Of a stretch of 64,000 nucleotides of DNA, positions 8,638 to 35,158 are shown piece by piece. The notes beneath the pieces are model-generated. The model did not search any database. It was not told the origin of the DNA and saw only the letters and a program-made list of their open reading frames with translations. This DNA comes from Alitta virens (lineage: Eukaryota > Annelida > Polychaeta > Phyllodocida > Nereididae). Numbering within the stretch: the stretch's first letter is position 1; every line of letters starts with the position of its first letter. The translations under genes were made by a program, and so were the position numbers. Location: assembly GCA_932294295.1 (NCBI GenBank), contig OW028584.1, positions 24,705,138 to 24,769,137 on the forward strand, written 5' to 3'.

Positions 8638-8778
8638 TTCAGTCGAGGGGGTTAAAAGTGGCACCCCGTGGGTTTAACCAGTGAATGATGTAGGTCCAAC
8701 GCGCTTGGACTAACTGCAAATGACGCAATGGTATCTGGGTTTGTTATGTCATCACAGCGGGGTACGCTCTCTAGGTAG

Positions 8779-8841
8779 TATATAAAGATTGACCAGTGAT
8801 CAGGAGATCATTCAGCATTTTGCTAACACACATAGAAGACC
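8779..8841 (+). promoter_or_regulatory. Core promoter (TATA, Inr, DPE) of Harbinger Myb-like gene
   Basis: TATATAAA starts at 8779. The initiator-like TCATTC places A+1 at 8810, 31 bp downstream. AGACC at 8837-8841 fits the downstream promoter element consensus RGWYV at +28 to +32. The predicted 5' UTR to the ATG at 8869 is about 59 nt. The arrangement matches that of the transposase gene at the other end. Confidence 0.65.
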
Positions 8842-8868
8842 AATAGACCGCTCCAGAAATTTTTTATC

Positions 8869-10470
8869 ATGCCGATGAAAAAGACCAGGTTCGCCAAAAA
8901 GCCTGCAGTGGACACAGAACAATCTGCTGGATCTTCTGATGACTCTGAAAAGCCGAGAAAGACATCGCAGAAGAGTGCTCTTCCTGTGAAGAAAACGAAG
9001 AAGTCTGCTGCAAGATCTCCTGCCAAGAAGACTGCTGCTGCCAAAAGATCTCCTGCCAAGAAGACTGCTGCTGCCAAAAGATCTCCTGCCAAGAGGACTG
9101 TTGCTGCCAAAAGATCTCCTGCCAAGACGCGTCTGCCAGTGCCAACAAGAACGTCATCAGATGCTGGCAGTAGTAATGATGAGCCTATGCTTGCTACTCC
9201 TGCGTCTGCTGTAGCATCTGCTGCAGCACCTGCTACTTCTTCGCCTGCACCTGCTACTTCGCCTGCACCTGCTCCTGCACCTGCTCCTTCGCCTGCTCCT
9301 TCGCCTGCTCATTTGCCTGTTCCTTCGCCTGCTCCCTCGTCTGCTTCTTCGCCTGCTACTTCCGAAGTGCCTGCTACACTTTCCTCTGTTGCCAGGAAAA
9401 AACAGGACAAGTTGTACCTGTCAGCCAGTGATGAGCAGGATATCGCTGACTGGTTTAGAGACCATCCCATTTTTTATGACCGGTCCTTGAAATCCTACAA
9501 GGATACAGGCAAGAAAATGGCCCTCATCAACGAGATGGCAAAGAAACTGAGTGTCCCCTGCACTGGATTCCAATTGAAGACCTGGATGGAATCCATGCGG
9601 ACTGTCGCAGGGAAACTAGTGCGGCAGGGACCATCTGGAACTGCGAAGAGGAACCCCACAGAGAAGGAGATGTGGATCATAACGAATTTTGGATTCCTCG
9701 TGGACGACATAACACGCATTCCAAGTCGCCGGGGGAACACTGCCCTTCAGAAGAAAATTGGCAAGACACGGGAGACACTTAGAAATCTCGAGGAAGAAGA
9801 AGGGAGCTCTACTCCAGCTGAAGATTCCGGGCCCAAGGAAATTTCGGATCCGGACATTTCTATGGATGTCCCTCCTGTCCGGCAGACGAAGGGTGGTCCA
9901 TACAAGAAGAGGAAAAGGGCAACGCCACCGCAATCTGACATAGAAAACCTTGTGAAAATTGCCAGACAGTCTACTGGAGTCATCCAGCAGACTATGCAGC
10001 AATTGGCCGCTCCTCCAAAGGACATGAAGGAGAGGCGAATCCGTGCGATGGGGGAATTCATTATCATGGAATGCCTGTCCATGGATAATGAAGCATTTGA
10101 AGACCTGCATAGCAACCTGATACCCACATTCATGCAGCTCAAAGCGAATGCCCTGAGAGCCAGGTTCCAGCTGCAGCATCAACCCCAGCATCAACCCCAG
10201 CAATTCATGCAGCACCAGCAGCAGCACCAGCAGCATCACCAGCAGCATCACCAGCAGCATCACCAGCAGCATCACCAGCAGCAGCAGCACCAGTTCTATC
10301 CTCCTTCTGGGTCCCAGCATCAGGTGCACTTCCCACCAATGCTAAGTCCAGAAAAGAATTGGCCAGCGGGAACCTCAGCAATGCCTCCTTCCGGACCTCC
10401 GTCTATGATATCCGAGATTCCCACCACTTCAACTCCTGCTTTGAACATAAGCCAGTTTTTGAATGTTTGA
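8869..10470 (+). CDS. Harbinger-encoded Myb/SANT (MADF-like) DNA-binding protein
   Basis: A 533-residue protein. Harbinger elements typically encode a Myb-like partner that binds the transposon ends and helps bring the transposase into the nucleus. Residues 1-100 are very basic, with four RSPAKKTAAAK-like repeats resembling histone H1 tails. Residues about 105-175 are Pro/Ala/Ser-rich. Residues about 180-275 hold the DNA-binding domain, with a Trp-rich helical pattern (ADWFRDHPIFYDRSLKSYKD, KTWMESMRTVAGKL) as in MADF or Myb/SANT-like domains. A basic patch PYKKRKRA near 348 is a candidate nuclear signal. Residues about 395-430 could be a helical dimerisation segment. About 435-480 is His/Gln-rich. 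AATAAA at 10636-10641 is a candidate poly(A) signal. The frame is uninterrupted. The repeat tracts may vary between copies. Confidence 0.85.
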   Translation: MPMKKTRFAKKPAVDTEQSAGSSDDSEKPRKTSQKSALPVKKTKKSAARSPAKKTAAAKRSPAKKTAAAKRSPAKRTVAAKRSPAKTRLPVPTRTSSDAGSSNDEPMLATPASAVASAAAPATSSPAPATSPAPAPAPAPSPAPSPAHLPVPSPAPSSASSPATSEVPATLSSVARKKQDKLYLSASDEQDIADWFRDHPIFYDRSLKSYKDTGKKMALINEMAKKLSVPCTGFQLKTWMESMRTVAGKLVRQGPSGTAKRNPTEKEMWIITNFGFLVDDITRIPSRRGNTALQKKIGKTRETLRNLEEEEGSSTPAEDSGPKEISDPDISMDVPPVRQTKGGPYKKRKRATPPQSDIENLVKIARQSTGVIQQTMQQLAAPPKDMKERRIRAMGEFIIMECLSMDNEAFEDLHSNLIPTFMQLKANALRARFQLQHQPQHQPQQFMQHQQQHQQHHQQHHQQHHQQHHQQQQHQFYPPSGSQHQVHFPPMLSPEKNWPAGTSAMPPSGPPSMISEIPTTSTPALNISQFLNV

Positions 10471-10766
10471 AGACAACAGTTTTAACCATCCCCGGCCTTT
10501 TTTAAGGCCACCAAATCCTCCCAAAAGAGCACGCCTTGTACACATATCTGTGTAAACAATCAACAAAAAAAAAGTTCCAAAACCCTCCAAACTTTTCTCT
10601 ATCTTTGTCCACGAAAGTATAATATTTTAGTCCAAAATAAATGTCTTCACATCAAGTAACTTGTTCATATTTTCTTTTCATTAGAGCACAAATATTGGTC
10701 CATTATTTTGTAATATTTCTTTATTTACACTTTAACTACTTTTCAGTAAATTGCTTATTATCACAC

Positions 10767-11173
10767 TTTACTAAAGTTTTTATATTTCTTTAGCAAACAA
10801 AATTGCTACTAACTTAAGTGTGATTGTGTCAGGGTTAATAATTTTGATCAAAGAAGACATACTTTTTTTGGTTCAGAACTGCCGTAGTTTTTTCTTGTTC
10901 AGAAGTGCCGTAGGTAAGTCTTCTTCAGAAGTGCCGTATTATTTTTTTCAGAACTGCCGTATTTTTTTCTAGTATACTGCCATGAAAATGAAAATAATGA
11001 AAGTACGGCACTTCTGAACAAGAAATAACTACGGCAGTTCTGAACAACCAACAACTACGGCACTTCTGAACCAAAAAAGTATGTCTTCTTTGCTAAATAT
11101 TAGTAACCCTGACACCACCACACTTAAGTTTATTGCAACTTTGTTTGCTAAAGAAATATGAAAACTTTATTAA
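10767..11173. repeat. Long imperfect palindrome between the two Harbinger genes
   Basis: The left arm (10767-about 10975) and right arm (about 11000-11173) are inverted copies at high but imperfect identity. Examples are TTTCTTTAGCAAACAAA against TTTGTTTGCTAAAGAAA, and AAAGAAGACATACTTTT against AAAAGTATGTCTTCTTT. The arms carry the 15-mer TTCAGAASTGCCGTA: four copies on + at 10872, 10898, 10924 and 10947, and reverse copies at 11004, 11030 and 11056, with another at 11191 just outside. The palindrome lies between the two genes' candidate poly(A) signals. It may be a nested foldback/MITE insertion, or a boundary between convergent transcripts. Confidence 0.8.
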
Positions 11174-11373
11174 ACCCAAAAAAAAACAAATACGGCACTT
11201 CTGAACCAAAAAAAAGTCAAATTCCATGAGAGACTAAATCTATCTGGGATGGTATTTTGTTTTGCGTGGGTTATGACAGGAACATTTTTTTATTACACAA
11301 GAAGTGTACATGGTCTGCTGTTTTGGGAGGATTTGGTGGCCTTGAAAAAGGCCGGGGTTGTTTTGTGGAATCT

Positions 11374-12699
11374 TTATACCATGTTATCTTGCCATGGCAC
11401 TCTTCCTTCGTCTGAATTGACAAAGTCCACCAAGTACTGCCGTTGATTCTTGGCTGCTTCAGTCATAGAATGCCCTCTATTTGTTGGTGGCATTTCAGCG
11501 ATTTCTCCAGCTGCCCTCCAAGTTCCTGGGGTGATACGATGTGTGATTGGATCTTCATGGTCCAGCATGATGTTCTGAGCAGTCGGATAAGTTATTCTCA
11601 TCAGATTGTGGAGGCAGCAACAGGCAATGACTATGGATTCCACTGTCTTAGTTCTTTGTGGCATGGTAGTCAGGAGACACCTGAACCTTGCTGCAAGGAT
11701 CCCAAATGCGTTTTCCACAATTCTTCTTGCCCGGGAGAGGCGGTAATTGTATATCCTCTGCTCTTTGGTCATGTTTCTGAGGGGCAGTGGCTTCATCAGC
11801 CAAGTTCTCAAGGGGAAGGCATCATCTCCGACAATGAAGTAGGGAAGAGGTCTGTGACCAGGAAGAATTGGTTCAGGTGGAGGTAACCCAATGGTCCCTT
11901 CTTCAAGTCCTTCTCTCAGGAGTGTATCATTAAAAACTCCTCCATCAGATCCAGCGCCGTTTGCTCCATAGTCTGCATAGAGGAACTTGTAATCAGCATC
12001 CACAAGAGCCATGAGTACGATGGAATGGAAGCCCTTGTAATTGTAATACACTGAACCACCTTTTGGAGGACATTTGATGGCCACATGCTTCCCATCAATG
12101 GCTCCAATACAGTGAGGAAAGTTCCACCTTGAATAGAACAGTTCCGCAACTTCTCTCCACTCTTCTGGAGTTGTGGGGCATGCCAGGACATCTTCATTAT
12201 ACTCCGCAATGATGGCTTCACAGACTTCACGAATTATCTTGCTGATGGTGTTGTAAGCCACTCTGAAGCCATACATGAGGGACCTGTAGCTGTTTCCAGT
12301 TGCCAAATAGCAGAGGGTGATGGCAAGTCTGAGTCCTGGTTCCAAAGATTTCCTCCAGAAGGTGTCTTCTTTGGTAATCCTATGACCAATTTTGCCAAGG
12401 ATCCCTTGAAACATGGCTGGTTCCATTCTCAAAAAGTTAGTATAACTAGAAGTGTCCTCTTGCATCAGTTCAGTCAGTAGACGCTCATACTGTCCCATCT
12501 GAGGTCTTCGAAGCAGCCAGGGCCTCACCCAACACCTCCTCCTCCTCTTCCTCCTCATGGCTGCTAATTTTCTTTCTTCTTTCTTCTTACTCTCCTCATC
12601 CTCAAGTAATGTTGCTGCAACAACAGCAAGTTGCAGATTCGCATGAGCAGCTAGTAGTACCAAGACTCTATTCTGATGTTCTGTCTGATGCATGTCCAT
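11374..12699 (-). CDS. PIF/Harbinger transposase (HARBI1-like, DDE superfamily 4)
   Basis: A 441-residue enzyme that would cut and paste the element. An Arg/Lys-rich segment near residues 48-66 could be a nuclear signal or DNA-binding tail. A helical region (about 85-165) precedes the catalytic domain. The catalytic signature is clear: GAIDGKHVAIKCP (Asp202), YFIVGDDAFPLRTWLMKP (Asp292) and SRARRIVENAFGILAARFR (Glu329), plus GSDGGVFND near 251 and the CCCLHNLM motif near 360. Length and motif order match the family, and there are no frameshifts or stops. The ATG at 12699 sits directly after a promoter-like GGACC. A candidate AATAAA on this strand is at 11294-11289. It is convergent with the Myb-like gene. 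Confidence 0.93.
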   Translation of the reverse strand: MDMHQTEHQNRVLVLLAAHANLQLAVVAATLLEDEESKKKEERKLAAMRRKRRRRCWVRPWLLRRPQMGQYERLLTELMQEDTSSYTNFLRMEPAMFQGILGKIGHRITKEDTFWRKSLEPGLRLAITLCYLATGNSYRSLMYGFRVAYNTISKIIREVCEAIIAEYNEDVLACPTTPEEWREVAELFYSRWNFPHCIGAIDGKHVAIKCPPKGGSVYYNYKGFHSIVLMALVDADYKFLYADYGANGAGSDGGVFNDTLLREGLEEGTIGLPPPEPILPGHRPLPYFIVGDDAFPLRTWLMKPLPLRNMTKEQRIYNYRLSRARRIVENAFGILAARFRCLLTTMPQRTKTVESIVIACCCLHNLMRITYPTAQNIMLDHEDPITHRITPGTWRAAGEIAEMPPTNRGHSMTEAAKNQRQYLVDFVNSDEGRVPWQDNMV

Positions 12700-12767
12700 G
12701 GTCCTCTCTCTTCAGCAGCTTCAGACAGAATGATCAAGAACAGTAGATGCAGCCCCTATTTATATAT
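12700..12767 (-). promoter_or_regulatory. Core promoter (TATA, Inr, DPE) of Harbinger transposase
   Basis: Read on the minus strand, TATATAAATAG begins at 12767. TCATTC within GATCATTCTG puts A+1 at 12731, and GGACC (12704-12700) lies exactly at +28 to +32 and fits the DPE consensus RGWYV. The start codon follows at 12699. The initiator context GATCATTC is the same as in the Myb-like gene promoter. Confidence 0.65.
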
Positions 12768-12817
12768 TTTTGTTAAACACAGCTATTTGCATAATAAGTA
12801 ATAACCCCGATGGGTAT

Positions 12818-13075
12818 CATGAGTAACTCGCCGACTTTACAAGACTCGGCGAGTTACTCGGCGAGTTACTCCTGGTACTCGGCGAGTTACTCCTGGTACT
12901 CGGCGAGTTACTCCTCTAACTAGCTGACTCTCTCCTCGAAATCGTTCACTAATTGGCTGCAACTCGGCGAGTCACTCCTGGTACTCGGCAAGTCGCTCGC
13001 CGAACCCGCCAAGTAACTCGGCGAGTAACTCGGCGAGTCACTCCTGGTACCAGGAGAGTCACTTTTTCCGCCAGA
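12818..13075. repeat. Right subterminal palindrome array of Harbinger element
   Basis: Repeated CTCGGCGAGTTACTC units, several in direct succession with CTGGTA spacers, mirror the left array. The unit contains the odd palindrome AACTCGCCGAGTT. Confidence 0.85.
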
Positions 13076-13110
13076 ATTCGTCGCCAACTCCTCGAATTTT
13101 GGCCGTTACG

Positions 13111-13159
13111 TAATACTACGAGTTGACTACGAGAGACTCGGCTATGTGGGAACGGGGCT
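13111..13159 (-). repeat. Harbinger right terminal inverted repeat
   Basis: Exact 49-bp reverse complement of 8201-8249, followed by the TTA target duplication. Confidence 0.95.
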
Positions 13160-16069: not shown

Positions 16070-17290
16070 TAATAATAACAATCATTTTATTCACACAAAA
16101 TTGTACGAGAAAAGTTGAAAAGTTATATGTTGAAATTGTTTGTATAACTGATCCAGAAAAGAATCTTTCTGAATCAATGATGGCAGGATCAAAGATCTGG
16201 CTTTCCAGGGAAGGTGCCAAATTCTTCTGACAGCTTTTCTCCACTGGACATGAAAGAGCTCCAAAGCTCTGCTAAATCCCATTGTTGTGCTCCGTAGAAA
16301 ACATATTGTGAGTCAAACAGTTTATTCACAGCTTCCCTGGGCAGGTTTTAAAATTTACAACTAAACTGTTGATCCTCTTCACAAAGTCATTTGTTTTAAG
16401 TTTTATATCAATTTTTCATCCTTCAGGTCAGCATTCACAATATTGCCAAGATGTTTGACACATGATAACCAAGTGAGTTCAACACCATTCAAAAGCACAT
16501 GTGGCTGTTCAGATTGCGTATTTTTGCTAAATCTAATACACACACATTTGGCACTGTTAAAGATAACAAGTGACCAACAAAATTTGCAGACCTCTTGCCG
16601 TGGGGGCTAGAAGTGTGACATCATCTGCATAAACTAAACTGCCAGTAAACCTGTATCCAATATAGCAGCCAGCTCTACATAATTCCAATCTACGAATCAT
16701 TTCATCAAAATAGACCAAAAACAGAATCGGTGAGAGGACCCCACCTTGTCTCATGCCATTGGTGCATAAAAATGTTTCAGAATGAGCATTTGCCCAAGCA
16801 GTTCTAACTTTCTGTCTTTGGAAAGTATTTAGCAAGATACGCATCACTGGTGCGGGTGTTTGACGACTTCTAAGCATTTCAATCAGCTTGTCCAATCTAA
16901 CCCTGTCAAATGCTTTAGAGGTGTCAAGTAATGCACAGAATACTTCGGATCCATTGGACATATAGTACTTTGTGCACTTTGATGATGAAGGAGATTACAA
17001 TGATGTAGAATGATTTGCTTTATAAGCAAACTGTAAGTCACAAGTTTGAAAGCAGTCTGAGTATTGTCTAAGTATAAACATGTCAAATAGTTGGTTTTTG
17101 CATGAACTTAGAGCAATTCCTCTGTAATTATTGCTGCAACATACATCTTTTGCTTGATCTTTCACTATAGAGATTATTGTGGTCATCAGCAAACACTCAG
17201 GTGTATATCCATGGGCTATCATAGCTGTAAACAGCAATGCAATTCTGTCAATCAAAGTTGGAGAAGCATAGATTAGATGGTTTGACCATA
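16070..17290 (-). pseudogene. LINE relic (non-LTR RT, CR1/L2-like)
   Basis: The minus strand carries a decayed RT. The upstream fragment 16995-17255 has the NYRGIALSSC block. The main fragment 16557-16961 has LLDTSKAFDRVRLDKL, GMRQGGVLSPILF and the catalytic YADDVTLLAPT. After a frameshift, 16560-16440 reads KCVCIRFSKN and KHLGNIVNADLKD. The C-terminal KAVRRIWHLPWKA motif is near 16220-16180. Frameshifts and stops are present throughout, and the endonuclease is missing. This RT type (MRQGGVLSP, YADDVTLLAPT) differs from LINE-A and resembles the relic at 28.1-29.3 kb. Confidence 0.85.
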
Positions 17291-19099: not shown

Positions 19100-22000
19100 T
19101 TGAAATATTTCGGTAAGAGATTGTTTTCAAATTTATAATAGAAAGCAAATTTATGCAGAGTACACAGGTGTTCTAATTTTAGTGTAACTAGTGTTTTGAA
19201 TAATGGGCTTGTATGAGCATAGTACTTGACTTTTTTACACATCTTTTAGCTTTTTTTTGTAGTGTTAATAGCCTACTAGACTGATGTCCCAACACTAGAA
19301 TTCCATAATTCAAGTGAGACAAAATTGGTGCACTGTAAATATTGAATGAAGCATTTTCGGTTGATACATATTTTAGTCTGAATAATATTCCTACTGTTTT
19401 GGCAAATTGTTTTAGCAATCATAACGATATGTGGTAGCCACTGCAAATTTTCTTGTATTGTTATGCCAAGTAGATTGAATTCCTTGAGATATTCAATTTC
19501 AGTACTATCCATAGATATTCTTGGTTTATTAACTTTTTTTTTTGGCATATGGAAAATCATAGCTTTAGTTTTTCTACAATTTAAAGATAGTTTGTTTACT
19601 TTAGTCAGTTGCTTATTCGTTCTAATTCAAAATGGATTTCATTTTCAATATCATGCCCATCAAACACATTAAGAGATGTTATTAGGTAGTGTCGTTGGCA
19701 AAGACGACAGGATGAACAATTTCAGTGGCGCATGCTATGTCATTAATGTTTATAATGAATAATAACGGCCCTAGTATTGAAACTTGTGGTACTCCTATTG
19801 TTAATTTCATATATTTGATTTTGCATTGTTATATTCCACATATTGCTATCTATTTGTCAAATAATTTTCAAGCAATTTTAGTGCTATACCCTGTACTTTA
19901 TAATAGGAAAGTTTGTATAGTAGTATTCTATGATTTAGGGTATTGAATGCTTTTGATAAGCCAATGTATATATTTGTAGGTAGGTTCTTTTTGTCCATTT
20001 CATCTGTTATCTTATTGATTGCCTTTCCTTAATCCATACTGACTTGGTAAAAACAAATTTTGTTGATCAAAATGTTCATATAACTGCAAAGACATTGCTT
20101 TTTTTATACCTGGGCCTAGGCCTTTATCAAGTATAGAACTACCATAGTATATTCTATGATAGACCAGGTATATGCGAACGAACCGTCTGAGGACTGAACA
20201 TTTTTTTGGGTCAACGCAGCAGCAGCGTAGGCAGCATAGGCAGTGAGGGGGATAGTGCGGTTTCACATAATATGGAAATTTTGCCAAAACTTTTAGGTGT
20301 ACAGCTCCAAATTGCACACCATTAGAACCGTGATACAAACGCACAACTAACAAACCAAATTTGACGAAGATCCGACAAGTAGAAACTGATTTGTTTAGCA
20401 TCGTACGTAGCCAGCGTAATCATGGAAGGGGTTGCCTACGCTATTATATATACTTTAAAAGGCTGCTGCTCCCCTAATATTCGTCTGATTTTCGTCAAAT
20501 AAAGACTGAATTGTTTCAGGAAATGTTTAGAATTTATATCTTAGTTCAAACGCTAGATGACTGTACTTTTTCATCTTCAAAATGGTTTGTGAAAAACAGA
20601 ACAAATTAGTAATTATACTATATAGTGTACTTGGGTGGCATATAACAATGCATTTCGTGGTCTGATGGGCAATCCAGGGATATTGTAGTGCTAGTCTGAT
20701 AGATAAATTTGTAAAATTCTGAGTAAAGAATGGAGTATACAAGGCACAAACACTGGTCTTAATGAGGCAGTAGCCATCATACTGTATTAAAGTGTTTACA
20801 TTGTAGGCCTAGTGCTGCTGGCATTCTACACACAACACCAGGTATCATTTTTTTTTTTTTGAAAAAGAATATTTTTGTTAACATAGTGGGAAGGATAGAG
20901 TAATCGTCAAAAAAATGTTTCTCATCTTTCTAATGTATGGGAATTACTTTAGCTATTTTAGAAAATCTGAAATATACCACATTTGAAAGACTGATTAATT
21001 ATAAACATTAGTGGTTCTGCTACTTCGTTCTTTACATATTTTTATATCTTACTGAAGATACCATCAACACCTTGGGTTGTTTTTAATTTAGGATTGTCTA
21101 TGATTTTGATTGTCTGTGTTATTGTGATAGGTTCAAAAGTAAATTGCTGTTTACTGGCAGTTTCAAGTAGTCTTGGAATGATTGGTTAATTGGAACTGTA
21201 ATACTTTCCGCAAGTTGAGGACCTGTTTATGAAGTAGTCATCGAAAGACTGTTATTATTTCAGGTTTTGTAATTTTTGCATGATTGACTACAAAATAAGT
21301 TTGAATGTTTTTAGCATTATATCTATGTTTTTTTAAACTTTATTTATTTCAGACCAATTATTTTTTATGTAATTATTTAACAATTCAAACTGTTTTCATA
21401 ATACTCTTGTTTTGCTACCCTAATAATTTTCCTCAAGAATTTATTGTTAGCATTTAAATTCAACCCATTGTTTTCATGTATTTCTTGTTTTTTTGAAGCC
21501 ATATTTTAGTTTTCTTTATAATTTATCTCTATAATTTATTGATCGTAATATTCCTTCGGTCATCCATTCACACTTTTTATGCTTGTGTTTGTTGAAGCAT
21601 ACATATTTAATAGGAAAACATTCTTCTATAAGTTCTGATATGATTGCATTAAGATTTTCGTAGCTTTTGTTTGGGTCACTTTCTATGAAATTTTGTAGTT
21701 TTGCTGTAGTTTCTGGACTCTGTATTTTGAATTTGAAGGTTTCAAATGCCTTTATTGTATTTGTATCAATTTTGATAATATTTTCCTTCTTTTTCTTGGG
21801 ATATAAATAGTCAAGAAAAATAAAGTATGGCAAGTGATCCGACATGTGTTTTAGTAAAACACCAGTGGTAGTTTTTGAATAATTAGTAGATAATTTAACA
21901 AAGAAGTTATCAATTAGGCTGCCACTAGTGTAGTTAAGTCTAGGAGGTATAGTGATTTTAGGGATATACTTATTTGATAAGATATTGTCCAGAAAATCAT

Positions 22001-22890
22001 TAGCATTTTTGTTTTTTTTGGAATTTCAAAAGATCAATATTGAAGTCTCCAGTAAAGATCACTTTTTTATGGTTTTTAGTCCAATACAGTCTTCATCAAG
22101 ATCATTAGTAAAATTAATTAAATCTTGGACTTTTGTTTTTGGTGATCTATAAACTACTCCGAGAAATTATTTCTTGTGTTGTTTGGATGGTAGTTTGGAA
22201 TTCAGATCTAATGTAATTCCATCATAATATTCAGATTTTTTTATTTGGTTTAGTTCTTTGTAGTTTATTGTGTTTTGTAGATAAAAAGCTACCCCTCCAT
22301 GGACACTACATGATTTGCTTTTTTATTCAAGATTTCAATATTAATTTTGAGTTCATCAAATTTAGCTTTCAGCGACTAACAATTTAAGCTTAATTTTAAG
22401 AAGGTATTTGTTTTAGACTGTAACAGTTCATGAAATGCTTCATTTTTGTAGTAAGAAGAATTTTGAAAAATAATTGGTTCATTGTTATATCAATATTATG
22501 ATGATCTATAGTAGGGTTTGGAATTAAATTAATCAAATTATCCGTTTCTGTTGAAGTATATTGATATCTTTTCCCAATAACTATTGAATTTAATTTCGAC
22601 TGGTCTTGGTTTGGTTTCTGCTTTGTCTCCAATACTTTTCTCTGTATTTTATCAAAGTCTTTTGCATTCAAATTGAATTTGTTTCTTCTCTAATTTTGCT
22701 TCCAAAAAGTTCAGTTATTTTCTTTTTGAGATCTTCATTTTCTTCTTCGGGCAAGCTATTTATGATTACATTGTTCTTTTTTTTCCATTTGTATTTGTGT
22801 ATATAAATTTGTTTGTTCATTTTTCATCTGTTTGGGTTCTTTCTTTTTTTTTTCTGTCAAAGTGCATGTTGTCTTTTCTTACCCCCATTA
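19100..22890 (-). pseudogene. LINE-B (CR1/Jockey group), near full-length but decayed
   Basis: Read on the minus strand from right to left. At 22890-22690 is an ORF1-like piece with NNVIINSLPEEENEDLKKK, which resembles the RRM/coiled-coil ORF1 of this group. At 22671-21850 are endonuclease remains ending in MSDHLPYFIF at 21845. From 21840 to 21516 is the post-endonuclease linker. At 21120-20890 are RT palm remains (IAKVIPI near 20940). At 20130-20020 is LPSQYGLRKGN, from 20000 the LSKAF block, and at 19560-19188 the C-terminal domain (FNLLGITIQENLQW, FVSLELWNSSVG). Many frameshifts and stops are present. An unrelated segment splits the RT at about 20105-20875. Confidence 0.8.
20105..20875. 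mobile_element. Unclassified insertion inside LINE-B RT
   Basis: The RT homology on both sides of this block would be contiguous without it (NYRPISLLP-type block on one side, LYEHFDQQNLFLPSQYG on the other). The block has short inverted ATACCTGG/CCAGGTAT near its edges (about 20106 and 20838), a T-run near 20849, and no coding frame. Exact edges are not resolved, and I cannot name a family. Confidence 0.4.
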
Positions 22891-22894
22891 TCTG

Positions 22895-23279
22895 CCTATG
22901 TGTTAACTTAAGACCAAAGGATTGTGGCTACACACTAAAAGAACCGGAGATGGGTGTAAAACAAAAAATGAGAAGGGACTATAACGACACCCTCCGTAAA
23001 GTATCTGGAAATTTCCCAGGGGTCTATGTGACAAATCTATACAAATGCCTGACAATTACAATTGAAGGAGGTAGAATACCGAACATAAATTGCTACCAAC
23101 CAGACGGCCTTCACCTTTCGAAACTAGGGAAGAAAAATATTGTAAACGGTATCAAGCAAATAATTCATGAAATGAAGTGTATGGTGAAATACCTATCCTT
23201 TTTTAAGGAAAACAATCCCTATTGCTGTGCGTGCATATTGTTAGGATGCCCTCACAGTGATGCCTCTCACACAAAATAG
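22895..23279 (+). pseudogene. ORF1 C-terminus with SGNH-hydrolase-like block
   Basis: The frame from about 22905 to the TAG at 23277 contains RRDYNDTLRKVSGNFPGVYV and then QPDGLHLSKLGKKNIVNGI. Asp-Gly-Leu-His matches the DxxH block V of SGNH/GDSL hydrolases, which carries the catalytic Asp and His. The Gly-Asp-Ser block I is not present because the copy starts inside the domain. SGNH/esterase domains are known in ORF1 of some LINEs, where their role is unsettled. The same block (QPDGLHLSMYGKEHLGIGI) occurs in the tandem units at 30-34 kb. The apparent N-terminal part of the open frame (22797-22900) belongs to LINE-B on the other strand. Confidence 0.65.
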
Positions 23280-23429
23280 AAGATACTGTCAAAACTAAAT
23301 GCTGTTGCTTAAAATGAATATTATGTAATATGATATATTGTAATATACTAAATTATGTTCAAAACTAATAAGCATGTTTTTCCGTTTTTCCATGTAATGG
23401 CTGGAGAGAAATGTGACCATTGCCCAAGG

Positions 23430-23712
23430 GTCATCCGTGGCTGAAACCAGATGACAAATCACTCGTGGCTGAAACCAAGTGATGAAAATACAAGGTAAAA
23501 ACATCACTCGTGGCATAAACCAAGTGATAAACACCCAACTAGTACACATCACTCGTGGCCGAAACCAAGTGATTAACACCAATGGACGACGCATCATCCG
23601 TGGCTGAAACCAGATGATGATGAACATCCATAATCAACATACAAATATCGCTCGTGGCTGACACCAAGTAATGGACTACCAGGAATATCATCCGTGGCCG
23701 AAACCAGGTGAT
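23430..23712 (+). ncRNA. Array of seven covarying 26-nt hairpins
   Basis: Seven 26-nt units begin at 23430, 23458, 23503, 23548, 23593, 23647 and 23687. Each folds the same way: a 6-bp stem, a 2-nt bulge CG on the 5' side, a 3-bp TGG/CCA stem and a 6-nt loop (CTGAAA, CCGAAA, or variants). Units 2-4 use arms ATCACT/AGTGAT, unit 5 ATCATC/GATGAT, unit 1 GTCATC/GATGAC, unit 7 ATCATC/GGTGAT. These are paired substitutions at three base pairs with the bulge kept and the loop near-constant. Unit 6 is the most decayed. Spacers are unrelated in sequence. The array lies between the SGNH ORF1 end and the endonuclease start of the LINE. A structured RNA role, such as protein binding or ORF2 translation, is inference. 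Confidence 0.7.
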
Positions 23713-23887
23713 AAACTGCATGCCTCCTAAGACCTGTCACGACATGAAAAAACCTGCCCTGCAGTTGAAAGGTGAGTAAAACGGGATATTGAATAATGTA
23801 TTGGAATTAAAGGTAATAATAACATGAAAACAGAAACTGTTCCTATTATTAATGCTTTCACCTTACTATCTACTAGCACAATAGCTG

Positions 23888-24660
23888 ATGAATGAACTAG
23901 AGCCTCACAACTTTAAAATAATCACACTTAACTGCAGGGCGGGGATAAACTCTAGAAAGAAACTAGAGAAAGTCACACAATATCTAGGAGGGCAGAAATG
24001 GGATATAGTACTGCTCCAGGAAACATCCAAGCTAGCCGACTTTAATATAGAAAAAATTGAGAGGGAATTAAAATGTAAATTAGCTCATGATAAAAACACC
24101 AAGGCGACACCGGGTAATGGTGTAGCATCTCTAATAAAAGAAAATGGAAATTTCCAAGTAATAGAAACCAAACAAATATTAGAAACTAGGGGAATAGACA
24201 TAAAAATAAAGATCATGAATGAAATTTACAATATAATAAATGTATATATACATACTAAGGTTAAGGAAAAGTAAAAAGATTTTGAGGAGCTAGATAAATA
24301 TATTAAACAAATAGAAAATAACATAATAATAGGAGGAGACTTCAATTCAGTAACTGAAATTGACCAGAGATCCTGTAACATTGAGCAGAAAAGAGTAGAT
24401 CACAACTTTATTAATTTAATCAAAGGAAACTACTTATATGATCTACCAGTAGTTCTAAATTATGTAAGGCCTACGTATGTGGGAAAACAAATTCTGCCCT
24501 CCTGGATAGATTTATAACATCCAGTATCAAAATAGTAAAACGATACAGTACTGAAATATGTCCATTCAGTGACCACATAGCAGTACATATTGATTTTTTT
24601 AATATTAAAGAACAAACACAAGATAATAAAATGAGAAATAAAACATTGGAAACTAAATAC
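23888..24660 (+). pseudogene. L1/Tx1-type LINE ORF2, APE endonuclease domain
   Basis: The ATG at 23888 starts NFKIITLNCRAGINSRKKLE, the first strand of the APE-type endonuclease that nicks target DNA. WDIVLLQET with the metal-binding Glu is near residue 46. GGDFNSV is near 24340 and SDHIAVHIDF near 24570, the latter being the conserved Ser-Asp-His end of the domain. The copy has a single in-frame stop (TAA, 24272-24274) and frame changes near 24490 and 24640, so it is inactive but only lightly damaged. Confidence 0.85.
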
Positions 24661-24685
24661 TGAACTGTTAAAGGACAATATCATT

Positions 24686-26664
24686 GTGAATGAGATAAAA
24701 CACTTCTGGGAAGAATGGCGGGAAATGAAAAGTAGTGTTGAAGATGTTGGTGAATGGTGGGATAAAGGTAAAAAGAAAATTAAACAAATATTTACAGATC
24801 ATGGAATAAAAAAAGCAAAAGAAAGGAAAGTCACAAAAAAAGAACTGACAGAAGTATTAGAGCGACTATTCAGAGAAAAGAATCAAAATTTTAGTCAGAT
24901 TAACAAAATAAAGGATAAACTAAATGAAATATTAGAGTATGAGATCGAAGGAGCAAAAATTAGGTCGAGGCAGCTTTTACTTCCAAATGAGGAAAAGGGA
25001 TCAAAAAACTTCTTAAACCTAGAATTAAAGACCGCGGTAAAAGAAGCAATTACATGTATCTTGGCAAATAATAAGGAAATAATAGATCCCATTGAAATTA
25101 AGCGAGAAATACAAAGCTTCTATCAAGATCTGTATACGACAGAAGGCGCCGATATTAAGTCAGTGGATACTTTACTCCAAAATATGGAGGCAATTAATTT
25201 AAACAATAATGAACGGACAACCCTAGCAAATTCATATGTAAGTATGAAATAAAAGCAGCGCTTAGAAAAATGCAAACGGGTAAATCTCCAGGTAGTGATG
25301 GGCTACCAAAAGAATTTTATGAGGCGCTATGGCATCAAATAGACGATGACCTCACTGAAATGGTTAACAATTGTTTTATAAATGGACAACTCACAAATAC
25401 CCAAAAGGGAGCAATTATTAAACTACTGTACAAAAAGGGAGACAGGAGGCTGCTAAAAAATTGGAGGCCGGTGTCTCTCCTGAATGTTGACTATAAATTA
25501 ATCAGCAGCACTATAGCAATCAGATTTTCCAAAGTAATAAACAAAATTATATCCCCCACACTGGGATGTGCAATCAAAGGTAGATACATTTTTGAAAACC
25601 TAAGATTAATTGAAGACTTGATTGAAAGGGATGAATCAAATATATGTCAGAATTACCCGGGAGAGATGATAAAAATATTAGATTTAGAAAAGGCTTTTGA
25701 TAGGGTAGAACATCAATTTCTATTTAAAACAATAAAAAAAATAAATTTAGGCAACAACCTCACAAAATGGGTAAAACTACTATATACTAATATATATACC
25801 ACAATTTTAACACCTTTTGGACAAACCGATACCATAAAGATATCCAGGTCGGTTAGACAAGGGTGTCCACTAAGCATGATATTATTTATAATAACATCCG
25901 AGCCTTTAATTAGAATGATAGACAACAATACTAGAATAAATGGGATTAAGATAAGTAATGAGGTAAACATTAAAATTATTGCATATGCAGATGACACCAC
26001 CCTGTTCCTTAAAAACGAAAATGATGATATTGAATGTGATAAGATAATCAAGATATATGAAAAGGCAACTGGGGCCAAATGTAATAAAGAAAAAACTAAA
26101 AGTCTATACTTTGCCAAATATAGAGTAGAAAATAAGGTAGAAGAACAGGAGGAGGTAGAAATATTAGGAATATGGTATCACCATAATTTCAATAAAAGAA
26201 GAGAAAAAAACTGGAAAACTGTATCAAATAAGATAAAGGCCAACCTGAATAAATGGCTTAATAGACACATGTCAATCTTAGGGAAATGTACCATAATTAA
26301 TGTTTTTGCGATATCGCAAATACAACATATAAACAGAATAATTCCACCAACAGTCAACATAATGAAAGAAATCCAACAGTTAATCAATAACTTTATATAT
26401 ATGGTCAGGCCTCCAGGGAACAGCAATGACCACATGGCAAGACCCATGCATGAAGGAGGTTTTAACCTTCCAGATATTAAGGCAAGATGTCTCTCTCAAT
26501 ATTATATGTGGGTATATTACTATATCAATAGCAATAAAGACCATCCTTGGACCATAATATTCCAAGAGAAGGTAGGCAGCCTGCTAGAAAGATATAGTTA
26601 CCAGATTTATTTTATTTTTTCTCCCCTTCTCTCATATTCACAAACAGACACCAAATTATCTTAA
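24686..26664 (+). pseudogene. L1/Tx1-type LINE ORF2, linker and reverse transcriptase
   Basis: The charged linker is at 24686-25240. RT follows after a one-base frame change near 25235. The RT frame is intact for 464 codons: MQTGKSPGSDGLPKEFYEAL, NWRPVSLLNVDYKLIS, CAIKGRYIFENLRLIEDL, ILDLEKAFDRVEHQFL, VRQGCPLSMILF, catalytic YADDTTLFL near 25990, then the thumb (VEILGIWYHHNF, WLNRHMSILGKC). Val-Arg-Gln-Gly-Cys-Pro and the Leu-Glu-Lys-Ala-Phe-Asp block are characteristic of the L1 superfamily. SMILF replaces the more usual SPLLF. Confidence 0.9.
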
Positions 26665-29849: not shown

Positions 29850-30118
29850 TGCCAGCCACTCCTGCAAGGAAGAAGAAGCCTAACCAGCCCAAGCAAAACA
29901 TCAGCCAGAAAAGGCTAAAAAAGATCACATCGGCGCTTGCAACCCCAGGGTTATGGCTCACGGGACACTGCCTGCCTCCCATGGTGGCGTCCCCATGAAA
30001 CCGGCCTGCTGTCACGAGCGCTCCCCCGATAGCAACCCTTCTCCCGCTGCCCCCCTCGACTCTTTAGAAAAGATGGAAACGGCCAAAAAAATACCGACTT
30101 TGACTCCTGGACTGCATT
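29850..30118 (+). pseudogene. Retroelement ORF1 N-terminus, unit 1
   Basis: The ATG at 29850 begins MPATPARKKKPNQPKQNISQ, strongly basic as in LINE ORF1 leaders. It follows TCTCTCTAG, which could be an acceptor-like pyrimidine tract. The frame stops at 29996. An overlapping frame from ATG 29953 (MAHGTLPASHGGV, then LDSLEKMETAKKIPTLTP) continues to a TGA near 30118. A frame change has probably split one ORF1. Units 2 and 3 lack the 29790-30060 part. Confidence 0.4.
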
Positions 30119-30222
30119 GACAAGATGGCTCTCATCATGGAGACCTTCATGGCACAGAGACCCTGGTCAAGGTTATTGCTATGATAAAAGGTTTGAGACT
30201 CTCTGTCACCGCCCCTTCCAAC

Positions 30223-30254
<32 letters not shown>

Positions 30255-30451
30255 CTCCTCTACAGGTTTCCAGCCCAACTGCAACCTCTTCCTCCTCCTT
30301 CTCCTCCTCCTTCTCCTCCTGCTCCTCTAAACCTCCTCATCCTCTGCTTTCCAACACTACTACTACCCCTTCCACCTCCACTAATACCCTACTTTCTCAC
30401 ACAGGTCCCCACAACCAGTAGCCAGAGGCTATGGAAACAGACTTTGCACTA

Positions 30452-30671
30452 CCAAGGAGCCAGAGCGGGGCGGGGACATAGCTCAGAGGTAGCGCTCTGG
30501 GCTTCCAACCGCTGGGTCCCGGGTTCGATTCCCGGTCGAGCCTAAGTTGGATGGCTGTTTCATCCTTCGTCTCATTGCCATGGTCCCTGCCTGTCCTAAT
30601 TAGCCCATCTGGTGCAGAAATACAGGACGTAAAGCCCAAATCACACACACACACACACCAAGGAGCCAGAG
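30452..30671 (+). mobile_element. tRNA-derived SINE nested in unit 1
   Basis: The SINE is at 30466-30657 and ends in a (CA)n tail. Target duplications CCAAGGAGCCAGAG at 30452-30465 and 30658-30671 are identical. It has A-box (AGCTCAGAGGTAG) and B-box (GGTTCGATTCCCGG) motifs, and CTTCCAA at the anticodon loop (UCC-like). The same insertion at the same place in unit 2 shows that it predates the tandem duplication. Confidence 0.93.
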
Positions 30672-30678
30672 AAAGAAG

Positions 30679-31189
30679 ATGCACAAGAGAACCAGGTCCA
30701 ACCAGAACCAGCTCTCCGACTCAGTTCCAGAGTCAGAGTCCCCCAAAAAGGCTAGGACCACAGAGGACTACTTCACAGTGGTCATCATCGGTAGAGGCAA
30801 CAACCTTTGCTACATCAGGCCTCAAAATATAGGAACTGGCTCAAAGATACAGTATATAATCCTTATGGCTGTGCGCATCAGACACAAAGACATTGATTGG
30901 GTACTGAAAAAAAAGTTCCATAACAGAGTCAAGAGAACACATAAATTTAGGACTTAAGAAAGCAGCTGGAAGACATCCTGGTTTCCGATACAAAAACCCT
31001 TATAAGGTGGAAACATATAACACCGACCAAGGAAGAAGGTTAATACAGAATGCCTTCCAGCCAGATGGCCTTCACCTTTCTATGTATGGAAAGGAGCACC
31101 TAGGGATAGGCATACTGAATATAATCTACAAAGACCTTGTAAATTCTATAAACTATCTAAAGATGTATAGTGAAAGCACCAGCCATTAA
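30679..31189 (+). pseudogene. Retroelement ORF1: NLS-like region and SGNH-like domain, unit 1
   Basis: ATG 30679 opens MHKRTRSNQNQLSDSVPESE followed by SPKKARTTEDYFTVVIIGRG, a charged linker leading into a beta-strand-like start. The frame breaks at 30957. Homology-like text continues to QPDGLHLSMYGKEHLGIGIL (31053-31110), where Asp-Gly-Leu-His matches SGNH block V, and ends at 31189. The nucleophile Ser block is not evident. Compare 22895-23279 in the L1/Tx1-type LINE, which has the same C-terminal block. The copy is inactive by frameshift. Confidence 0.55.
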
Positions 31190-31206
31190 GCTGCCCACCC
31201 TGCCTC

Positions 31207-31535
31207 ATGCTCCAGAAGGAAGAATCCGGAAGAGGGGCTAAGTCAAAAGCATATAGGATAAGGCTGATTAATCAAAATCAATGGCATGCCATAAAGGCCG
31301 ACATTATGAAATACATTCTGATGCTGAAAATGGAACAGGATCAGTCCTTCCGCTTCTTCCTTCTGGAAAACAGAGGATATGGTTTGTCTGAAGATACCTC
31401 AGATGAGTTCTGGGCGTTGGGCAGTGGAGCTACTCATGGAGATAAGAGAGCAATGGGCAAACCGAGCAACTTTTAAACAAACCAAAGAACTACTCCTAAC
31501 AAAGATCATCAAATCAATCCTAACCCCCTATTAAC
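31207..31535 (+). pseudogene. NADAR-like (YbiA-type) C-terminal segment of retroelement ORF1, unit 1
   Basis: The frame reads LINQNQWHAIKADIMKYILM, LKMEQDQSFRFFLLENRGYG, then LSEDTSDEFWALGSG. After a frame change near 31415 it reads VELLMEIREQWANR, and the run continues to a stop near 31532. The order Trp-x3-Lys-x3-Met, Lys-x-x-Gln, Leu-Leu, Glu-x-Thr-x-x-x-Phe-Trp, and then a Leu-Met-x-Ile-Arg end is the pattern of the NADAR family (YbiA-like), whose members act on NAD/ADP-ribose-linked substrates. The N-terminal half of the domain is missing. The call comes from motif memory only; chance resemblance is possible. Confidence 0.45.
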
Positions 31536-31629
31536 TTTGTAAATAGACACGAGTCAAATATTACCCAGCCAAATAAATTACCAGCTCTCTACTGCCAAGC
31601 TGGTAGTATACACCCAATCTTATTTATCT

Positions 31630-31910
31630 ATTGCGAGTGACCATAATAAAATGCACTCAAAAAGGTGGTAAACAGTAAGCATACTAAAATGTACTCGAAA
31701 GGTGGTAAACAGAGTAAACATACTAAAATGTACTCTGAATTTAATAAAATGCACAGAAACAAATTAAATGACCAGCTCCCTATTGCCAAACTGGTAGCAC
31801 TTTTCATATTCAATTGTATAAGAAATCGATTGTGAGTGACCATAATAAAATGCACTCAAAAGGTGGTAAACAGAGAAAACATACTAAAATGTACTCTGAA
31901 TTAAATAAAA
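31630..31910 (+). repeat. Direct repeats in 3' region of unit 1
   Basis: Three imperfect copies of a segment with AAAGGTGGTAAACAG, then AAACATACTAAAATGTACTC, lie in the 3' region together with repeated GAGTGACCATAATAAAATGC. The same set recurs in unit 2 (34077-34357). Confidence 0.7.
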
Positions 31911-32416
31911 TGCGCACATACAAGGTACAACACATCACAGGTACCTTACATACACAGATACCACATCACAGTATATCTGCACAACAAACAGACACCAAAA
32001 CTATGCATACAAATACAAAAGCAAAACTGTATAATGATAACACCGTATTAATCAAACAAATGGAAAGAATGAATAAAATTGCACCATTTAATAATCATAT
32101 ACAAAAAACCTTGGGTGATAAAAATACACACATAGACCACCTACTAAATTAAACACACTTATTAAAAGTAAAATGCACAACACAAAACACATGAGGGGCG
32201 ATGATGAAGCAATAGAGTAAGTACTTGGAGCAACTGCCCTGGTGTCCACCAGCAAATGGGATGAGGGAAACCTCACCCTCCTGATGCGGGACATCAAAGG
32301 GTCAGAAGAGTTGGATAGACAGTATCTTTGAAAATGGGATAAACTAACGATGAAGCTCCGGAGATCAAATGAAAATGGGAAAACTCTAATCTGAGCCAAA
32401 AAATAAATAAATAAAA

Positions 32417-32484
32417 ACCGCCAGAAAGTCTACCGGAGGCAAGGTCCCCAGGAAGCAGTTGGCCACCAAGGCTGCCCGTAAGAG
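32417..32484 (+). pseudogene. Histone H3 coding fragment (codons about 6-28) between units 1 and 2
   Basis: The 68 bp translate as TARKSTGGKVPRKQLATKAA followed by RK and two bases of the next codon. This is the canonical histone H3 N-terminal tail from Thr6 to about Ser28, with Val for Ala15. It begins right after the A-rich end of unit 1 and ends where unit 2 begins (ATTTTGTTGTGG). No other H3 codons are found on either side. It may be a target-site remnant of insertion into an H3 gene, or H3 mRNA captured by template switching. Confidence 0.9.
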
Positions 32485-32898
32485 ATTTTGTTGTGGTGCT
32501 CCCAATCCGCCCCCTCGTCTCTGTAGAAAAGATGGAAACAGCCAAAAAAATACCAACTTTGACTCCTGGACTGCATTGACAAGATGGCTCTCATCATGGA
32601 GACCTTCATGGCACAGAGACCCTGGTCAAGGTGATTGCCATGATAAAAGGTTTGAGACTCTCTGTCACTGCCCCTTCCAACTCCTCCTCCTCCTCTTCTT
32701 CCTCCTCTACAGGTTTCCAGCCCAACTGCAACCTCTTCCTCCTCCTTCTCCTCCTCCTTCTCCTCCTGCTCCTCTAAACCTCCTCATCCTCTGCTTTCCA
32801 ACACTACTACTACCCCTTCCACCTCCACTAATACCCTACTTTCTCACACAGGTCCCCACAACCAGTAGCCAGAGGCTATGGAAACAGACTTTGCACTA

Positions 32899-33118
32899 CC
32901 AAGGAGCCAGAGTGGGGCGGGGACATAGCTCAGAGGTAGCGCTCTGGGCTTCCAACCGCTGGGTCCCGGGTTCGATTCCCGGTCGAGCCTAAGATGGATG
33001 GCTGTTTCATCCTTCGTCTCATTGCCATGGTCCCTGCCTGTCCTAATTAGCCCATCTGGTGCAGAAATACAGGACGTAAAGCCCAAATCACACACACACA
33101 CACACCAAGGAGCCAGAG
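32899..33118 (+). mobile_element. tRNA-derived SINE nested in unit 2
   Basis: The SINE is at 32913-33104, with the same target duplications (32899-32912 and 33105-33118) as in unit 1. This is a duplicate by tandem amplification rather than a new insertion. Confidence 0.93.
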
Positions 33119-33125
33119 AAAGAAG

Positions 33126-33636
33126 ATGCACAAGAGAACCAGGTCCAACCAGAACCAGCTCTCCGACTCAGTTCCAGAGTCAGAGTCCCCCAAAAAGGCT
33201 AAGACCACAGAGGACTACTTCACAATGGTCATCATCGGTAGAGGCAACAACCTTTGCTACATCAGGCCTCAAAATATAGGAACTGGCTCAAAGATACAGT
33301 ATATAATCCTTATGGCTGTGCGCATCAGACACAAAGTCATTGATTGGGTACTGAAAAAAAAGTTCCATAACAGAGTCAAGAGAACACATAAATTTAGGAC
33401 TTAAGAAAGCAGCTGGAAGACATCCTGGTTTCCGATACAAAAACCCTTATAAGGTGGAAACATATAACACCGACCAAGGAAGAAGGTTAATACAGAATGC
33501 CTTCCAGCCAGATGGCCTTCACCTTTCTATGTATGGAAAGGAGCACCTAGGGATAGGCATACTGAATATAATCTACAAAGACCTTGTAAATTCTATAAAC
33601 TATCTAAAGATGTATAGTGAAAGCACCAGCCATTAA
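33126..33636 (+). pseudogene. Retroelement ORF1: NLS-like region and SGNH-like domain, unit 2
   Basis: Counterpart of 30679-31189 with a few substitutions (for example KKAKTTEDYFTMVI and RHKVIDWV). The same frame break occurs at 33404, so the damage predates duplication. DGLH block at about 33506. Confidence 0.55.
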
Positions 33637-33653
33637 GCTGCCCACCCTGCCTC

Positions 33654-33982
33654 ATGCTCCAGAAGGAAGAATCCGGAAGAGGGGCTAAGTCAAAAGCATA
33701 TAGGATAAGGCTGATTAATCAAAATCAATGGCATGCCATAAAGGCCGACATTATGAAATACATTCTGATGCTGAAAATGGAACAGGATCAGTCCTTCCGC
33801 TTCTTCCTTCTGGAAAACAGAGGATATGGTTTGTCTGAAGATACCTCAGATGAGTTCTGGGCGTTGGGCAGTGGAGCTACTCATGGAGATAAGAGAGCAA
33901 TGGGCAAACCGAGCAACTTTTAAACAAACCAAAGAACTACTCCTAACAAAGATCATCAAATCAATCCTAACCCCCTATTAAC
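33654..33982 (+). pseudogene. NADAR-like segment, unit 2
   Basis: Identical in translation to the unit 1 segment, including the frame change after DEFWALGSG. See the unit 1 entry for the family argument. Confidence 0.45.
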
Positions 33983-34076
33983 TTTGTAAATAGACACGAG
34001 TCAAATATTACCCAGCCAAATAAATTACCAGCTCTCTACTGCCAAGCTGGTAGTATACACCCAATCTTATTTATCT

Positions 34077-34357
34077 ATTGCGAGTGACCATAATAAAATG
34101 CACTCAAAAAGGTGGTAAACAGTAAACATACTAAAATGTACTCGAAAGGTGGTAAACAGAGTAAACATACTAAAATGTACTCTGAATTTAATAAAATGCA
34201 CAGAAACAAATTAAATGACCAGCTCCCTATTGCCAAACTGGTAGCACTTTTCATATTCAATTGTATAAGAAATCGATTGTGAGTGACCATAATAAAATGC
34301 ACTCAAAAGGTGGTAAACAGAGAAAACATACTAAAATGTACTCTGAATTAAATAAAA
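34077..34357 (+). repeat. Direct repeats in 3' region of unit 2
   Basis: Same internal repeats as in unit 1 at +2447 bp. Confidence 0.7.
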
Positions 34358-34863
34358 TGCGCACATACAAGGTACAACACATCACAGGTACCTTACATAC
34401 ACAGATACCACATCACAGTATATCTGCACAACAAACAGACACCAAAACTATGCATACAAATACAAAAGCAAAACTGTATAATGATAACACCGTATTAATC
34501 AAACAAATGGAAAGAATGAATAAAATTGCACCATTTAATAATCATATACAAAAAACCTTGGGTGATAAAAATACACACATAGACCACCTACTAAATTAAA
34601 CACACTTATTAAAAGTAAAATGCACAACACAAAACACATGAGGGGCGATGATGAAGCAATAGAGTAAGTACTTGGAGCAACTGCCCTGGTGTCCACCAGC
34701 AAATGGGATGAGGGAAACCTCACCCTCCTGATGCGGGACATCAAAGGGTCAGAAGAGTTGGATAGACAGTATCTTTGAAAATGGGATAAACTAACGATGA
34801 AGCTCCGGAGATCAAATGAAAATGGGAAAACTCTAATCTGAGCCAAAAAATAAATAAATAAAA

Positions 34864-34931
34864 ACCGCCAGAAAGTCTACCGGAGGCAAGGTCCCCAGGA
34901 AGCAGTTGGCCACCAAGGCTGCCCGTAAGAG
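34864..34931 (+). pseudogene. Histone H3 coding fragment between unit 2 and unit 3
   Basis: Same 68-bp H3 tail fragment as at 32417-32484, including the Val15 variant and the same junctions. Confidence 0.9.
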
Positions 34932-35126
34932 ATTTTGTTGTGGTGCTCCCAATCCGCCCCCTCGTCTCTGTAGAAAAGATGGAAACAGCCAAAAAAATAC
35001 CAACTTTGACTCCTGGACTGCATTGACAAGATGGCTCTCATCATGGAGACCTTCATGGCACAGAGACCGAAGTCAAGGTGAATGCTGTGATAGAAGGTTT
35101 GAGACTCTGTCACTGCCCCTTCCTCC

Positions 35127-35158
<32 letters not shown>

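Follow-up and report, generated by a model that had tools for sequence, protein, structure and literature searches.

The DNA analysed here, which we call the window, is a stretch of 64,000 nucleotides from the annelid Alitta virens (GCA_932294295.1, contig OW028584.1, positions 24,705,138 to 24,769,137, forward strand); all coordinates are counted from its first nucleotide. It contains two LINE copies, both broken, each of which has a row of short predicted hairpins after an ORF1-like end. Element 1 has an open frame at 22950..23279 (+) that encodes YQPDGLHLS and stops with TAG at 23277-23279. The first row of hairpins, array a, starts 150 nt past this stop, occupies 23430-23712 (+) and ends 172 nt ahead of the point where the ORF2 frame opens. 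The broken ORF2 extends over 23885..26664 (+). The original prediction placed the hairpins between ORF1 and ORF2 of a LINE, and this location holds for array a, with an ORF1-like end before it and a broken ORF2 after it.

The ORF2 of element 1 consists of an endonuclease-like part, a linker and a reverse transcriptase (RT), whose RVT_1 domain is in frame at 25213-26664 (E 7.9e-33). It contains an in-frame stop at 24272-24274 and frame changes further on, and we found nothing that corresponds to the C-terminal ~200 aa of the nearest relative. The three closest relatives of the RT are all unnamed proteins with 51-52% identity. Among solved structures, the RT matches the LINE-1 ORF2 protein with an E-value of 1.8e-40 (frame residues 8-446), compared with 5.1e-19 for R2, while the top match (6.5e-41) is to a chain whose only name is RNA-directed DNA polymerase. 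The endonuclease-like pieces match Exo_endo_phos_2 (E 4.2e-4) and Exo_endo_phos (E 0.035), both under the curated cut-offs. Because the RT is nearest to LINE-1 ORF2, with the endonuclease-like part below cut-offs, element 1 is, judged by its sequence, an L1-superfamily LINE copy, and the predicted LINE setting of array a is borne out as far as ORF2 is concerned. Element 1 resembles L1-superfamily LINEs also in the A-rich composition of its sense strand. This bias runs from 23401 to past 26400 and is absent from 23201-23400, between the ORF1-like end and array a.

The ORF1-like end of element 1 yielded nothing above thresholds in Pfam, PDB or the protein database, where none of its 4 candidates reached an E-value of 0.1 or better, and the upstream part of this ORF1 was not found. 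A structure predicted from the single sequence had a mean pLDDT of 47.1 and was set aside. The identification of ORF1 in both LINE copies is based instead on the homology of their ORF1-like ends to each other. The corresponding frame of element 2 lies at 30944..31189 (+), encodes FQPDGLHLS and stops with TAA, and 30 of 78 residues are identical between the two (38%, E 4e-15 as a single comparison). Among all six frames of the window, the DG-x-H motif occurs in four places, namely 23103, 31064, 33511 (a duplicate of 31064) and 51135, the last of which has stops all around it and looks like chance. We take YQPDGLHLS to resemble the last motif of GDSL/SGNH esterases. In some fish L2 elements, ORF1 is reported to carry an esterase (PMC7140322).

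Array a has seven units of exactly 26 nt, and their number, length and positions agree with the original prediction. Each unit is laid out as an outer 6-bp stem, a 2-nt CG bulge on the 5′ side, a 3-bp inner stem (TGG/CCA) and a 6-nt loop. Unit 1 (23430..23455) has the arms GTCATC/GATGAC, while ATCACT/AGTGAT is found in unit 2 (23458..23483), unit 3 (23503..23528, loop CATAAA) and unit 4 (23548..23573, loop CCGAAA). Unit 5 (23593..23618) has ATCATC/GATGAT. Unit 6 (23647..23672) is decayed, with one C:A mismatch and one G:U pair, and unit 7 (23687..23712) has ATCATC/GGTGAT with one U:G pair. All seven are on the + strand. Thus, there are two types of arms, ATCACT/AGTGAT (type A) and ATCATC/GATGAT (type B), with GTCATC/GATGAC a variant of type B. 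The loops are CTGAAA (three units), CCGAAA (two), CATAAA (one) and CTGACA (one).

The bulge and inner pairs had been described as constant in six of the seven units, which was an error: both CG and TGG/CCA are constant in all seven. The CG is kept in every unit although CpG in the element is at about half of expectation (0.49). The core CGTGGCNNANACCA occurs without mismatch at the seven units, while the 10 other permitted matches in the window have 2 mismatches each. Similarly, a covariance model built from array a gives its units 38.8-45.9 bits and the next-best match in the window 10.6 bits. No Rfam 15 family reaches its gathering score within the window; the best match at array a scores 20.3 bits, below its gathering score of 38. 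We rejected the possibility of a snoRNA, CRISPR or microRNA, for which Rfam scores were only weak. Stops in all three + strand frames exclude array a as coding sequence, and its antisense open frame gave no candidates in the protein database.

The spacers were described previously as irregular, and this is true only in part. From unit 1 to unit 7 they measure 2, 19, 19, 19, 28 and 14 nt, such that units 2-5 repeat with an exact 45-nt period. The three 19-nt spacers of units 2-5 are 49% alike, compared with 33% for shuffled letters, and 0.6% of 20,000 shuffles are as high. The regular period and the faint similarity of the spacers imply that an old tandem duplication contributed to array a. This raises the alternative that a palindrome was duplicated in tandem by neutral processes, in which case the units would pair through common descent, template-switch correction of quasi-palindromes or gene conversion.

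The changes within the stems bear on this alternative in both directions. Stem pairs 1, 5 and 6 had been predicted to change on both sides together, and the count of pairs confirms this: 98.4% of the pair cells in array a are standard, and 3 pairs and 6 cells are changed on both sides. In 500 shuffles, none reached the observed number of standard cells, the number of both-side cells or the covariation score, while 37 matched the three both-side pairs and 482 matched the number of further pair types. When right arms are permuted among units, 0.95% of all permutations pair equally well. The right arms have a mean energy of -6.2 kcal/mol with their own left arms, compared with -4.19 kcal/mol after arm exchange. 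However, the units fall into two classes, and so there were few change events. The change from type A to type B amounts to four transitions. Random transitions leave every pair Watson-Crick in 3.0% of cases with 4 of 12 arm sites changed and in 2.2% with 6 of 12, and a model allowing any substitution at four arm sites keeps all pairs in 0.33%. With only three both-side pairs and odds of 2-3% for the transitions, a neutral origin gains some ground, and the pair changes of array a taken alone are modest evidence for selection on structure.

A better sign of selection than these counts is that conservation ends at the edges of the hairpins. Units 2-4, all of type A, differ only in loop columns 13-14, and the 19-nt spacers around them are 42-58% alike. 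In comparisons of neighbours among these units, 4 of 52 hairpin positions differ as opposed to 18 of 38 spacer positions (p 3.3e-5). Decay of the spacers but not of the hairpins argues against a purely neutral history, and one would perhaps expect palindrome correction to affect the bulge as well, yet its CG is intact in 7/7 units.

All units were predicted to fold into one shape. For five of the seven, this is indeed the fold of lowest energy, but units 6 and 7 differ: unit 6 adopts another fold that is no better than those of shuffles, and the best fold of unit 7 has a divided bulge and two displaced pairs. Correspondingly, the fold z-scores are 0.05 for unit 6, -0.92 for unit 7 and -2.0 to -3.3 for the remaining five. 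The 361-nt region of array a as a whole folds no more stably than shuffled sequences (z -0.31), of which 41 in 100 are equally good. In this context, arms of like units pair across between units. The unit's own outer stem has a mean probability of at least 0.6 in 3/7 units without a distance limit (1, 3 and 7), in 2/7 within 150 nt (3 and 7), in 1/7 within 80 nt (4) and in 5/7 within 40 nt (1, 2, 3, 4 and 7). On the antisense strand, all seven units fold more stably, by 0.4-2.1 kcal/mol, and often into another shape. The wobble pairs of array a scarcely favour either strand (41/42 outer cells are paired on + and 40/42 on -). Given the z-score of the region, the weak units 6 and 7, the cross-unit pairing and the better antisense folds, our reading of these predictions is that free array a RNA would hold the bulged shape poorly on its own.

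We found the second array by scanning the window for the bare geometry (6 bp, 2-nt 5′ bulge, 3 bp and 6-nt loop), with no letters specified; comparing the LINE sequence with the window had not revealed it. The scan recovered five of the seven array a units and matches at 31711, 31833, 34158 and 34280. Four single matches occur elsewhere, at 8514, 15279 and 46962 (+) and at 63904 (-). Array b, at 31634..31897 (+), starts 444 nt past the ORF1-like stop of element 2 and has five 26-nt units, which start at 31634, 31672, 31711, 31833 and 31872; units 2 and 5 are decayed. Examples are GAGTG-AC-CAT-AATAAA-ATG-CACTC and GAGTA-AA-CAT-ACTAAA-ATG-TACTC. The positions 30051-32708 and 32510-35153 form a tandem duplication with 98.6% identity, which contains second copies of the ORF1-like end (33391..33636, +) and of array b (34081..34344, +). 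Because the second copy of array b lies within this duplication, it is not independent, and there are only two independent arrays. Using five RT proteins as queries, we found no ORF2 of element 1's family after array b in the window, and therefore a location between ORF1 and ORF2 is valid for array a only.

The region of array b is a 38/39-nt tandem repeat, in line with tandem duplication of a palindrome, and the internal covariation of the array is weak, in that 24 of 120 arm exchanges pair equally well. Within 40 nt, the outer stems of three of the five units have probabilities of at least 0.77, with 0.59 and 0.05 for the other two. As in array a, the antisense strand folds slightly better for all five units, often into another shape. 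Array b sits in a higher-order repeat (31540-31925) with two copies 161 nt apart, which includes inverted pieces of greater length (ACCAGCT...AGCTGGT) as well as half-units that lack the 5′ arm.

The comparison of the two arrays is more informative. They have the geometry, the strand and the side of the bulge in common, while all nine base pairs differ. Their consensus sequences agree only at positions 1, 15, 16 and 17 of 26, the last three of which are the AAA of the loop. When the 7 + 5 units are placed in one gapless register, 103 of 108 pair cells are standard and 9/9 pairs are changed on both sides, although the register is set by the geometry and these counts therefore lean towards structure. 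Sliding the partner by 1-3 positions reduces the standard cells to between 23/72 and 35/108 and the both-side pairs to one or two. A MAFFT alignment of both arrays placed four-column gaps inside units and was not used for counts. What the arrays show independently of the register is their location downstream of ORF1 and the constant spacing of their parts (a 2-nt bulge on the 5′ side, then 3 bp, then a loop of 6 nt), and this evidence comes from one window and two broken elements.

We defined a cluster as three or more matches in a span of 400 nt, each with a minimum of 5 outer pairs. Clusters in the window occur on the + strand at 23430, 31635 and 34082, and there are none on the - strand. 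All three (two independent and one duplicate) follow a DGLHLS ORF1-like end and are on the sense strand of ORF1. Nine other geometries gave no + strand cluster in the window. Besides the array geometry, with its nested forms and reverse complement, a grid of 288 geometries on the two strands gave two more clusters. These have other geometries, with 2 inner pairs, and lie at 49008 and 49067, apart from both elements. Control strands comprising 1,322,980 bases from 78 loci had 101 single matches and no cluster, even though 76 of these loci had been fetched by a loose hairpin pattern and are, if anything, biased towards matches. A Markov control gave a cluster in one of 60 sequences of 64 kb. Since a tandem repeat multiplies one lucky match, the odds for a single random 39-nt unit constitute a fairer control; at the local composition, the geometry was present in 70 of 100,000 trials. 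By contrast, it is held by 3 of 22 tandem arrays that we checked, namely array a, array b and its duplicate (the 22 were merged from 41 rows of a tandem-repeat list).

A second array whose geometry is kept while its letters have changed, after a homologous ORF1-like end, points to selection on RNA shape. The bulged shape itself has therefore probably been kept by selection, and the original prediction's preference for such selection over simple tandem duplication is supported, mainly through array b. Recurrence of the geometry in unrelated sequence in this position, and its frequency among tandem arrays, speaks against duplication of a palindrome under neutrality, and we regard that account as quite improbable.

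Short conserved inverted repeats in a row could alternatively act as DNA, for example as transcription-factor sites or an internal promoter. The fact that antisense RNA folds equally well is compatible with this idea. However, the one-sided 2-nt bulge sets the outer and inner arms off-centre, which is meaningful for a single strand and not for a dyad in a duplex. Moreover, position 1 and the loop AAA are all that the two array consensuses have in common. A function as DNA is thus very unlikely in our view.

If the function is in the RNA, the array might control translation of ORF2, with weak hairpins that slow, reload or recruit ribosomes and so yield a low level of ORF2 from the same RNA. The position of array a, soon after the ORF1-like stop and ahead of the ORF2 frame, would suit this role, and the stops in all three + frames mean that ORF2 would require its own start. 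Such control has no need, however, for a fixed bulge, 3 bp and a 6-nt loop across two arrays with different letters, and element 2 has no ORF2 of element 1's family after array b in the window. We consider control of translation unlikely. At 23769-23777, 56 nt downstream of array a, lies AAGGTGAGT, which we take to agree fully with the 5′ splice site consensus; GTAAGT also occurs at 32217, after array b.

The hairpins could also bind a host protein with a role in RNA stability, export or germ-cell localisation. Their apical part is conserved, and the lower stem varies without losing its pairing, which would suit any RNA-binding protein that recognises both shape and sequence. On the other hand, a host protein common to both elements would lead us to expect the bulge, upper stem and loop to be alike, and only the loop AAA is. 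Recognition by a host factor is accordingly a reading that we doubt.

The reading that we favour is that array a is a candidate multi-site tag in the RNA of the element that would be bound by the element's own protein. This role, proposed by analogy, is plausible, and we would give it a little less than an even chance. It is suggested by a shape that is kept while its letters are free, in several copies, on the coding strand and after ORF1. The + strand RNA would form the hairpins in the cell, and the binder would be the ORF1 protein or the linker of the ORF2 protein. This protein would read the bulge, upper stem and loop, and the lower stem would need only to pair. Several sites would provide avidity for RNP assembly and self-recognition. 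Co-change of the protein and its hairpins would explain the turnover of letters from one lineage to the next.

A broader version of this proposal is that there is a LINE lineage with a self-recognition code after ORF1, in which the geometry, with a loop ending in AAA, is fixed and the letters are rewritten as the protein co-changes, and which serves as a multivalent packaging or cis-preference signal. We put this forward tentatively and would sooner expect it to fail than to hold. If true, it would add a third type of cis-element in LINEs to 3′-tail stem-loops and poly(A) tails. Hairpins repeated after ORF1, constant in shape and variable in letters, would make a ready test case for how LINEs choose their own RNA, and the geometry is usable as a search term for further arrays.

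The best comparison is with stem-loops in the 3′ tails of LINEs. ZfL2-1 and ZfL2-2 each recognise their own 3′ stem-loop, mainly through the loop, while the stem is required structurally, and whole stem-loops are not exchangeable between the two (PMC4176376). The ORF2 protein binds the 3′ stem-loop via the region between endonuclease and RT (PMC4176376). LINE 3′ stem-loops are described as having a loop of 5-7 nt on 8-10 bp, interrupted by an asymmetric bulge at a distance of 4-6 bp from the loop (PMC5135761). How LINE proteins choose their own RNA is described in the same paper as open, above all for elements thought to depend on a poly(A) tail (PMC5135761).

As described, the 3′-tail stem-loops (UnaL2, ZfL2-1, ZfL2-2 and SART1, with proposed examples in human L1/Alu) are similar to the array hairpins, which have 9 bp, a 6-nt loop and a 2-nt bulge. 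The array hairpins lie within the size range given for the number of base pairs and the loop (PMC5135761). Their bulge is closer to the loop, at 3 bp in array a and at 3 or, when slid, 4 bp in some units of array b, as opposed to the 4-6 bp in those descriptions. The 3′-tail stem-loops are at the 3′ end of the element, whereas array a is before ORF2, and so by position it is not a member of this group. In addition, one stem-loop and no row is described for the 3′ tails, as opposed to seven and five units after ORF1 in arrays a and b. Among the matches listed in our literature searches, which covered mostly non-subscription literature other than Repbase reports, no title or abstract opening mentioned a hairpin array between the ORFs of a LINE. 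We class arrays a and b as candidate LINE cis-acting stem-loops in a new place and number.

The phage coat-protein operator hairpin and the lentiviral TAR element also consist of a short stem, a small bulge, an upper stem and a short loop, and are bound by protein. The likeness of the array hairpins to them is in shape alone, with no link in sequence or protein. We also searched viral contigs. The hairpin letters had no matches there, and a query consisting of two cores in a row retrieved 76 stretches with one match each. With the covariance model, three matches had E-values of 1 or less, the strongest of them scoring 20.8 bits (E 0.033); we judged these to be chance. The viral contigs contained no geometry cluster, no RT of element 1 and no ORF1-like end. 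Two genome contigs from animal-symbiont assemblies, L001 and L002, encode LINE-type RTs with 33% and 21% identity (best segment), respectively, and neither has a hairpin match or cluster. These two contigs come from assemblies of symbionts of the bivalves Taylorina and Monitilora and are probably host contamination.

We now note other elements in the window. The duplication at 30051-35153 has a unit of 2.45 kb, with a third partial copy from 34957, and contains a tRNA-like stretch that recurs elsewhere in the window. Inside it, in the vicinity of 32411-32480, is a stretch that we presume to resemble a histone H3 fragment. Other LINE remains occur at 19276-22025 (-), 6743-7673 (+), 16557-16994 (-), 50407-52014 (-) and 54924-55349 (+). 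RVT_1 was confirmed at 7026-7670 and 50410-52014, and the remaining ones were judged by translation. No hairpin cluster of the array geometry is associated with these remains in the window. A whole-looking PIF/Harbinger-type DNA transposon occupies 8201-13159. Its ends are inverted, 98% identical over 56 nt and flanked by TTA on both sides. It encodes a 445-aa DDE_Tnp_4 transposase (11377-12711, -) and a 544-aa MADF/Myb-like protein (8836-10470, +), and it has inner 21-nt repeats.
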